In this document: piece after piece, positions 42,076 to 43,139 of the stretch
Layout of the letters: each line of letters starts with the position of its first letter
Position numbering within the stretch: the first letter of the stretch is position 1
Source of the DNA: Candidatus Brocadia sp.
GTDB taxonomy: Bacteria; Planctomycetota; Brocadiia; Brocadiales; Brocadiaceae
Assembly (NCBI GenBank): GCA_021646415.1
Contig: SOEU01000001.1
Location: 186,001 to 250,000 of the forward strand
Length of the DNA stretch: 64,000 nucleotides
Reading direction: 5' to 3'
Notes under the pieces: model-generated
What the model was told of the DNA's origin: nothing
The model's input: the letters and a program-made list of their open reading frames with translations, nothing else
The model's database searches: none
Program-made: the position numbers and the translations under genes

Positions 42076-42789
42076 TTATAATTCCTGGATATGATTGTTT
42101 CCTTTTGACGCGATTTGCAGCAATCTTGTCTTAATCTCTGCAAATGGGAAATTTTTACCAGGGCAGGCGGTACATTTCTGATGCACCTGCTTATGTTGTA
42201 ATATATCGGATGAGGCGATGTTGTATTTTCTGGAAAGATACTGAATAAGTCTGACGAGCGAATCGAGTTGGTTTTCAGTTGGGGCTCCACCATTTTCAAA
42301 GTCACCAACCAGGCAAATCCCAATTGCTACACGGTTGCAATCCATATTCGCTGTATGCGCACCGTGAATTTGTTTTTCCCACCGCCCGCCAACCTCAATC
42401 TCGCCATCTCCCGAAAAAGAACCGTTCCCAATTACAAAATGATAAGCGAGGCCATGCTGCCATTTTCTGTCTTTCCGGTGGTAGTGATCAAATCTGGCAG
42501 CATTACCCTTTGCGGTGGCACTATGATGTATGACGATATATTTCCACGGACGTCCATTTACAGCGATGTGACAGAGTTTTTCAAGGTCTTGTAAATAGGG
42601 ACTAGAAGGCCGTTTCGCCAGCTCAATCTTTGCACAGGTAAAAAAGGGGGTAGAAATACACAAACCCGATGCAACCACGATCATAACGAGCGAAAGGCAT
42701 TGAACCATCCTCTCGCCCTGATGCATGATTCTATTCCTAAAATACATCTTCGAGTTTCGCGACAATACGGATACTATTTTTCTATACAT
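42076..42789 (-). CDS. N-acetylmuramoyl-L-alanine amidase (Amidase_2/PGRP type)
   Basis: About 237 residues from the ATG at 42789. The frame is open from 42861, but that part is the riboswitch terminator hairpin. A hydrophobic segment (MVQCLSLVMIVVASGLCIS) targets it to the envelope. The zinc amidase domain has YIVIHHSAT (zinc His), GLAYHFVIGNGS, QIHGAHTANMDCNRVAIGICLVGDF, and HKQVHQKCTACPGKNFPF (second zinc His and the final Cys ligand). It cleaves the peptide-sugar bond of peptidoglycan. It is a monocistronic gene preceded by a c-di-GMP-type riboswitch and an intrinsic terminator, which predicts second-messenger control of wall remodelling. Confidence 0.9.
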   Translation of the reverse strand: MYRKIVSVLSRNSKMYFRNRIMHQGERMVQCLSLVMIVVASGLCISTPFFTCAKIELAKRPSSPYLQDLEKLCHIAVNGRPWKYIVIHHSATAKGNAARFDHYHRKDRKWQHGLAYHFVIGNGSFSGDGEIEVGGRWEKQIHGAHTANMDCNRVAIGICLVGDFENGGAPTENQLDSLVRLIQYLSRKYNIASSDILQHKQVHQKCTACPGKNFPFAEIKTRLLQIASKGNNHIQEL

Positions 42790-42821
42790 AGACTGCCGCC
42801 TTAACTTAAAGTTTTTAGAAA

Positions 42822-42877
42822 TAAAAAAAGCCCTACTGTGAAAATATTCACTCCTGAACATCTTCGGCAGTAAGGCT
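42822..42877 (-). terminator. Intrinsic terminator, riboswitch expression platform
   Basis: On the minus strand AGCCTTACTG (42877-42868) pairs fully, with one G-U, to CAGTAGGGCT (42838-42829). Seven T residues follow. It lies between the riboswitch aptamer and the amidase start codon, the place of an attenuator. Confidence 0.8.
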
Positions 42878-42919
42878 ATCTTTAAAAGTTAAAGCTTCCT
42901 CTATGGTACGCGTCTCTTT

Positions 42920-43010
42920 TGTTATCTCAGGTGAATCCCGCATGAAACCTATTAAAGACCCTTTCCTTTGCGTCCCCCGATCACTCGGGGTTTGCCTTTA
43001 TCGTTTTTAC
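42920..43010 (-). promoter_or_regulatory. Cyclic di-GMP-I (GEMM) riboswitch candidate
   Basis: Read on the minus strand the region shows the GEMM signature: AAAGGCAAACC, a hairpin CCCCGAGTGATCGGGG, then GGGACGCAAAGG, AAAGGGTCT, and a distal ATGCGGGATTCACC. GGCAAACC and GACGCAAAG are the most conserved GEMM-I blocks and occur here in the right order and spacing. A terminator and then the amidase gene follow. Whether the ligand is c-di-GMP or the GEMM-Ib ligand cAMP-GMP cannot be decided by eye. Confidence 0.8.
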
Positions 43011-43139
43011 ATTATAAATGTAATTTTTTCATTGTCAATAAATAATTTCTGGTTTCCAATCTCCGGGTTGGGAACTCACGTAACAAAGAAACCCATCTCA
43101 TAAAAATCTCATGAAAGAACACAGAGAACCATTGGCTAC

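Follow-up and report, generated by a model that had tools for sequence, protein, structure and literature searches.

Support for a c-di-GMP-I riboswitch with an overlapping terminator in front of an amidase gene of Candidatus Brocadia

The amidase gene and its leader

The window, i.e. the whole 64,000-nucleotide stretch of Candidatus Brocadia DNA analysed here, contains on its minus strand a gene for an N-acetylmuramoyl-L-alanine amidase, preceded by a leader with a promoter, an aptamer and a terminator (Table 1). Relatives of the amidase are present in all 59 genomes searched, the nearest proteins being those of Candidatus Brocadia (roughly 73–91% identity), which places the organism in this genus of anammox planctomycetes, and its PF01510 domain match bears out an earlier note on this DNA, which had placed a cell-wall amidase downstream of the leader. 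As that note had also pointed out, the in-frame ATG of the longest open reading frame, at 42861, sits within the terminator hairpin; the true start is most likely the ATG at 42789. The promoter lies just upstream of the aptamer, and transcription is therefore expected to start directly at it. The exact arrangement TTGACA-N16/17-TATAAT is found at the same place in nine of the eleven Brocadia amidase leaders and also in other Brocadiaceae, while the two remaining Brocadia orthologs (L064 and L069) have a weaker −10 element.

When the whole window is searched against Rfam, a single match lies above threshold, that to the c-di-GMP-I family (RF01051); it covers the full length of the model (E 9e-9). 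The earlier note had proposed a GEMM-type riboswitch and named a covariance-model search as a check; the score of 58.1 bits is clearly above the gathering cutoff of 35 bits. The related class c-di-GMP-I-GGC (RF03167) was considered and rejected, as a scan of positions 42925-43015 alone gave a 3′-truncated match of 39.2 bits against a cutoff of 59 bits, and on the whole window RF01051 is the better match of its clan. The predicted fold of the complete leader beats 200 of 200 shuffled sequences (z = −5.7, i.e. 5.7 s.d. below the shuffles). The assignment of the amidase mRNA leader as a GEMM-I (c-di-GMP-I) riboswitch with an intrinsic terminator is supported.

Table 1. Features of the amidase locus (window coordinates, except for the window itself)
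Feature	Position	Strand	Basis or remark
Window	bases 186001-250000 of contig 1		genome 3.8 Mb, 42 contigs
N-acetylmuramoyl-L-alanine amidase (Amidase_2), 237 aa	42076..42789	(−)	PF01510, E 4e-23
Possible ribosome-binding site AAGG	about 10 nt upstream of ATG 42789	(−)	
T7 tract of terminator	42823..42829	(−)	sequence
Terminator hairpin	42829..42877	(−)	90.4% of cells paired; about −27 kcal/mol on its own
c-di-GMP-I (GEMM-I) aptamer, 63-nt insert in P3 loop	42863..43006	(−)	RF01051, 58.1 bits
True 3′ half of aptamer: P3 3′ strand and GCCGAA	42863..42885	(−)	Rfam alignment; invariant columns
Variable apical P3 insert	42886..42951	(−)	unconserved in orthologs; holds 42943-42930; without CANGGANGU
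P3 5′ strand AGGAAAGGGUCUUUAA	42952..42967	(−)	pairs with 42885-42869; 94.9% of cells paired
Conserved pocket strands GGCAAACC and GACGCAAAG	42966..42996	(−)	invariant or nearly invariant alignment columns
First hairpin CCCCGA-GUGA-UCGGGG, GNRA tetraloop, part of P2	42975..42990	(−)	98.7% of cells paired, 13 orthologs
Sigma-70-type promoter	43011..43038	(−)	sequence; −35 TTGACA 43038-43033, 16-bp spacer, −10 TATAAT 43016-43011

Aptamer architecture and ligand pocket

The architecture of the aptamer was examined in an alignment of the amidase leaders of 11 Brocadia genomes and two relatives (L080 and L086; n = 13). On the minus strand, GGCAAACC at 42996-42989 is followed by the first hairpin and then by GACGCAAAG, which ends at 42966. 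This hairpin consists of six pairs capped by the GUGA tetraloop, and two pairs are changed on both sides among the 13 orthologs. The order of these elements agrees with the earlier note, but its placement of the 3′ half does not hold: the proposed sequence ATGCGGG-N-TCACC, at 42943-42930, lies in the P3 insert, is unconserved in the orthologs and makes a poor partner for the P3 5′ strand. In the window copy, the latter can pair at only two of seven positions there, versus six of seven at the distal site, which ends at 42869. An aptamer that uses this proximal strand, with an independent terminator downstream, would still account for the shorter RF01051 alignment (43006-42936), which at 39.6 bits exceeds the cutoff. 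Since this alignment reaches such a score without the distal strand, most of the RF01051 score lies in the 5′ half. The distal alignment, however, scores 18 bits higher, the distal strand is nearly invariant in the 11 Brocadia genomes and two relatives whereas the proximal strand is variable, and all other copies in the genome use the distal counterpart, which makes a proximal 3′ half highly improbable. With the distal strand as partner, 96.3% of the cells are paired in the 13 orthologs, compared with 35–56% when the partner strand is slid, and six cells, in the first hairpin and in P3, are changed on both sides. With the 3′ half misplaced, the earlier note missed the sharing of one strand by the terminator stem and the aptamer.

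P3 of the window copy contains one G·A mismatch. When the aptamer stretch is folded alone, P3 is not preferred (−38.5 kcal/mol for the free fold versus −27.9 kcal/mol with P3 forced), in calculations that leave the ligand and the tetraloop-receptor contact unscored. A search for a tandem repeat in the P3 insert of the window copy found none.

The ligand pocket of c-di-GMP-I aptamers is defined by the Vc2 contacts G20, A47 and C92 together with a universal interhelical C-G pair (PMC4744006). According to our own position mapping, G20 and A47 correspond to G13 (42996) and A40 (42969) of the leader, and C92 maps to the GCC at 42868-42866, of which both C's are invariant; the equivalents of all three contacts and of the interhelical pair are invariant in the 13 orthologs. 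A G20A change allows a GEMM-I aptamer to bind cGAMP (PMC7288161). The 3′,3′-cGAMP (cAMP-GMP) variants of GEMM-I from Geobacter have the same fold, but this variant class, which needs an A at the G20 position, was rejected for the Brocadia element, as the equivalent nucleotide is a G in 13 of 13 orthologs. Because the pocket keeps G20, c-di-GMP rather than cAMP-GMP is the ligand expected from the sequence.

In overall organization the element resembles Vc2 of Vibrio cholerae (RF01051), with which it shares the pocket strands, the GNRA-capped P2 hairpin, P3, the equivalents of the contact nucleotides and the position in a 5′ leader. It differs from Vc2 by the 63-nt insert in the P3 loop, by a GUGA tetraloop that faces a continuous CUUUAA/UUAAAG helix instead of the consensus UAAG/UAU receptor, and by a P3 3′ strand that doubles as a terminator arm.

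The leaders of more distant orthologs bear on whether the aptamer in front of the amidase could be a decaying or altered relic. The Jettenia orthologs L081, L082 and L083 have GGCAGCC and GACAAAAG in place of the conserved pocket strands, with promoter, P3 and terminator retained, and L078, L085 and L088 keep the terminator without the 5′ half. Against this, pocket and P3 are retained in every one of the 11 Brocadia orthologs as well as in L080 and L086 and, on visual inspection, also in two Kuenenia-like leaders (L084 and L087), so that a relic at the amidase gene is very improbable. The changed pocket strands of the three Jettenia leaders themselves may represent either a relic or an aptamer with an altered ligand.

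Terminator and sense of the switch

The terminator comprises a 10-bp stem and a T7 tract, which ends 33 nt upstream of the start codon at 42789, just as the earlier note had described. Its pairing in the ortholog alignment drops to 43–50% of cells when the strands are slid, and its double changes include A-U to C-G and G-C to A-U. The 5′ arm of the hairpin, AGCCUUACUG (42877-42868), includes the interhelical G and the greater part of the P3 3′ strand. As one RNA segment thus serves both helices, aptamer and terminator are mutually exclusive, and strand sharing is likely the switching mechanism. In the unliganded full leader the terminator fold (−60.6 kcal/mol) is calculated to be lower than the forced aptamer fold (−40.8 kcal/mol) by 20 kcal/mol, which suggests that termination is likely the default without ligand.

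RNA polymerase would start at about 43004. Without ligand, AGCCUUACUG would pair with CAGUAGGGCU, and the resulting hairpin and T7 tract would stop transcription at about 42823, giving a leader of roughly 180 nt as the only product. With c-di-GMP bound, the aptamer would keep AGCCUUACU in helix P3, making the terminator 5′ arm unavailable and allowing read-through into the amidase gene. The genome of the window encodes 12 GGDEF domains. The leader is thus very probably a transcriptional c-di-GMP-I riboswitch that prevents termination upon ligand binding and turns the amidase on, in which we infer the ligand, the direction and the physiological role. Switches of the c-di-GMP-I class are known in both senses, and an alternative GGCA-UGCC pairing seen in the free folds could in principle let the ligand favour termination. 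Such an OFF switch is unlikely, as the terminator 5′ arm takes up the interhelical G and most other nucleotides of the P3 3′ strand, which makes the ligand-bound fold and the terminator incompatible. The element shares with Bc1 of Bacillus thuringiensis a class I aptamer followed by a rho-independent terminator; Bc1 is reported to have a long platform and two terminators 28 bp apart, whereas the Brocadia leader has a single terminator that overlaps the aptamer (PMC11218506).

Sibling copies and CsrA-like hairpins

As a single element the amidase leader is ordinary, but it belongs to an unusually large riboswitch family. The genome of the window contains 45 RF01051 matches, 43 of them over the cutoff, and ten other Brocadia genomes contain 19–56, with the maximum of 56 in the relative G005. 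The copies in the window's genome are cassettes of nearly uniform make-up: GATAAAGGCAAACCCTGAGNRATCAGGGGACGCAAAGTAAAGGGTCTT, then a variable P3 insert, followed by AAGACAGCCTTACTGCCGAAGAT and GCAGTAAGGCTTTTTT. A strict test finds the overlap of aptamer and terminator strands at 43 of the 44 other copies, and at the exception, L179, eight of ten positions are still paired. Products of genes downstream of the copies include a molybdopterin oxidoreductase similar to nitrate/nitrite oxidoreductase, proteases of the subtilase and M48 types, a cytochrome c′, a STAS-PilZ protein, sigma-54 activators, a caspase-like protein and surface proteins. The copy in front of the oxidoreductase (L013, G000 C18:4771-4880) precedes a protein resembling the alpha subunit of nitrite/nitrate oxidoreductase, a core anammox enzyme. 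The P3 loop seems to be a tolerated insertion site. Dispersed palindromes (GCAGAGACGCA..TGCGTCTCT) or GTTTAAACG-type repeats occur in the inserts of L001, L006, L012, L013, L017, L027, L170, L175, L177 and others. A search of one literature library for c-di-GMP riboswitches of anammox bacteria, Brocadia or planctomycetes found nothing relevant.

About a third of the inserts sampled contain a sequence resembling the binding site of CsrA/RsmA. The SELEX consensus of CsrA is RUACARGGAUGU with the GGA in a loop (PMC7652899), and that of RsmA has the form A/U-CANGGANG-U/A (PMC4768041). The consensus CANGGANGU is present in 37 of 114 P3 inserts from four Brocadia genomes, a sample that outside the window's genome comprises the better-scoring copies only; the copies are related by descent, so that the motif counts are non-independent events, and 14–15 of the motif-bearing inserts are clearly different. 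The GGA lies in a predicted hairpin loop in 36 of the 37, versus 46% with the flanks shuffled, and the stricter YACANGGAWGTR occurs in 34 inserts versus 0.005 expected in shuffled sets. None of the 114 inserts contains CANGGANGU when reversed or complemented as a control. Of 28 motif matches throughout the window's genome, 12 fall in P3 inserts (L003, L011, L016, L018, L019, L023, L171-L174, L178 and L181), and such hairpins are also found in copies from three other Brocadia genomes. These sibling copies have the features of predicted CsrA hairpins, i.e. CANGGANGU or RUACARGGAUGU with the GGA in the loop. In the inserts of L018, L011, L016, L174, L203 and L265 the hairpin is followed by an apparent degenerate second aptamer 3′ strand (e.g. 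AAGACAGACTTAGTCCAGAA). A CsrA site in the P3 insert of the window copy was considered and rejected: a scan found no motif there, and its GGA triplets are unconserved in the orthologs.

CsrA is encoded in every Brocadia genome searched, and in the window's genome its gene adjoins FliW. Three Jettenia genomes are without CsrA, and the motif is absent from 19 of the 20 Jettenia stretches examined; the one that has it (L282) is a copy of Brocadia type. The Kuenenia-like genomes encode CsrA and show no motif in the copies examined; thus the presence of CsrA alone fails to predict the motif. The E. coli moaA Moco element, a riboswitch aptamer bound by CsrA (PMC7652899), offers a precedent for one leader that answers both a small molecule and CsrA, relevant solely to those siblings that carry CANGGANGU hairpins; the literature searched yielded no example of a c-di-GMP-I riboswitch bound by CsrA. 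On the strength of these motifs, a second protein input, predicted to be CsrA, is probable in sibling copies elsewhere. It is somewhat more tentatively suggested, with the balance slightly in favour, that the Brocadia c-di-GMP-I family is a two-input one, in which CsrA would bind a hairpin in about one third of the sampled copies, stabilise or block P3 and thereby alter the response to c-di-GMP. Terminated leaders may then act as a CsrA sponge, and the window copy would be without CsrA input.

Anammox bacteria matter for the treatment of wastewater and for the nitrogen cycle. In a genome with about 45 near-uniform terminators under c-di-GMP control, placed before genes for a cell-wall amidase, a molybdopterin oxidoreductase, proteases, regulators and surface proteins, c-di-GMP would be a main lifestyle switch. 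In other bacteria both c-di-GMP and CsrA control the change between a motile and an attached way of life and, if the hairpins work, the two signals would converge on individual RNA molecules in many separate leaders.
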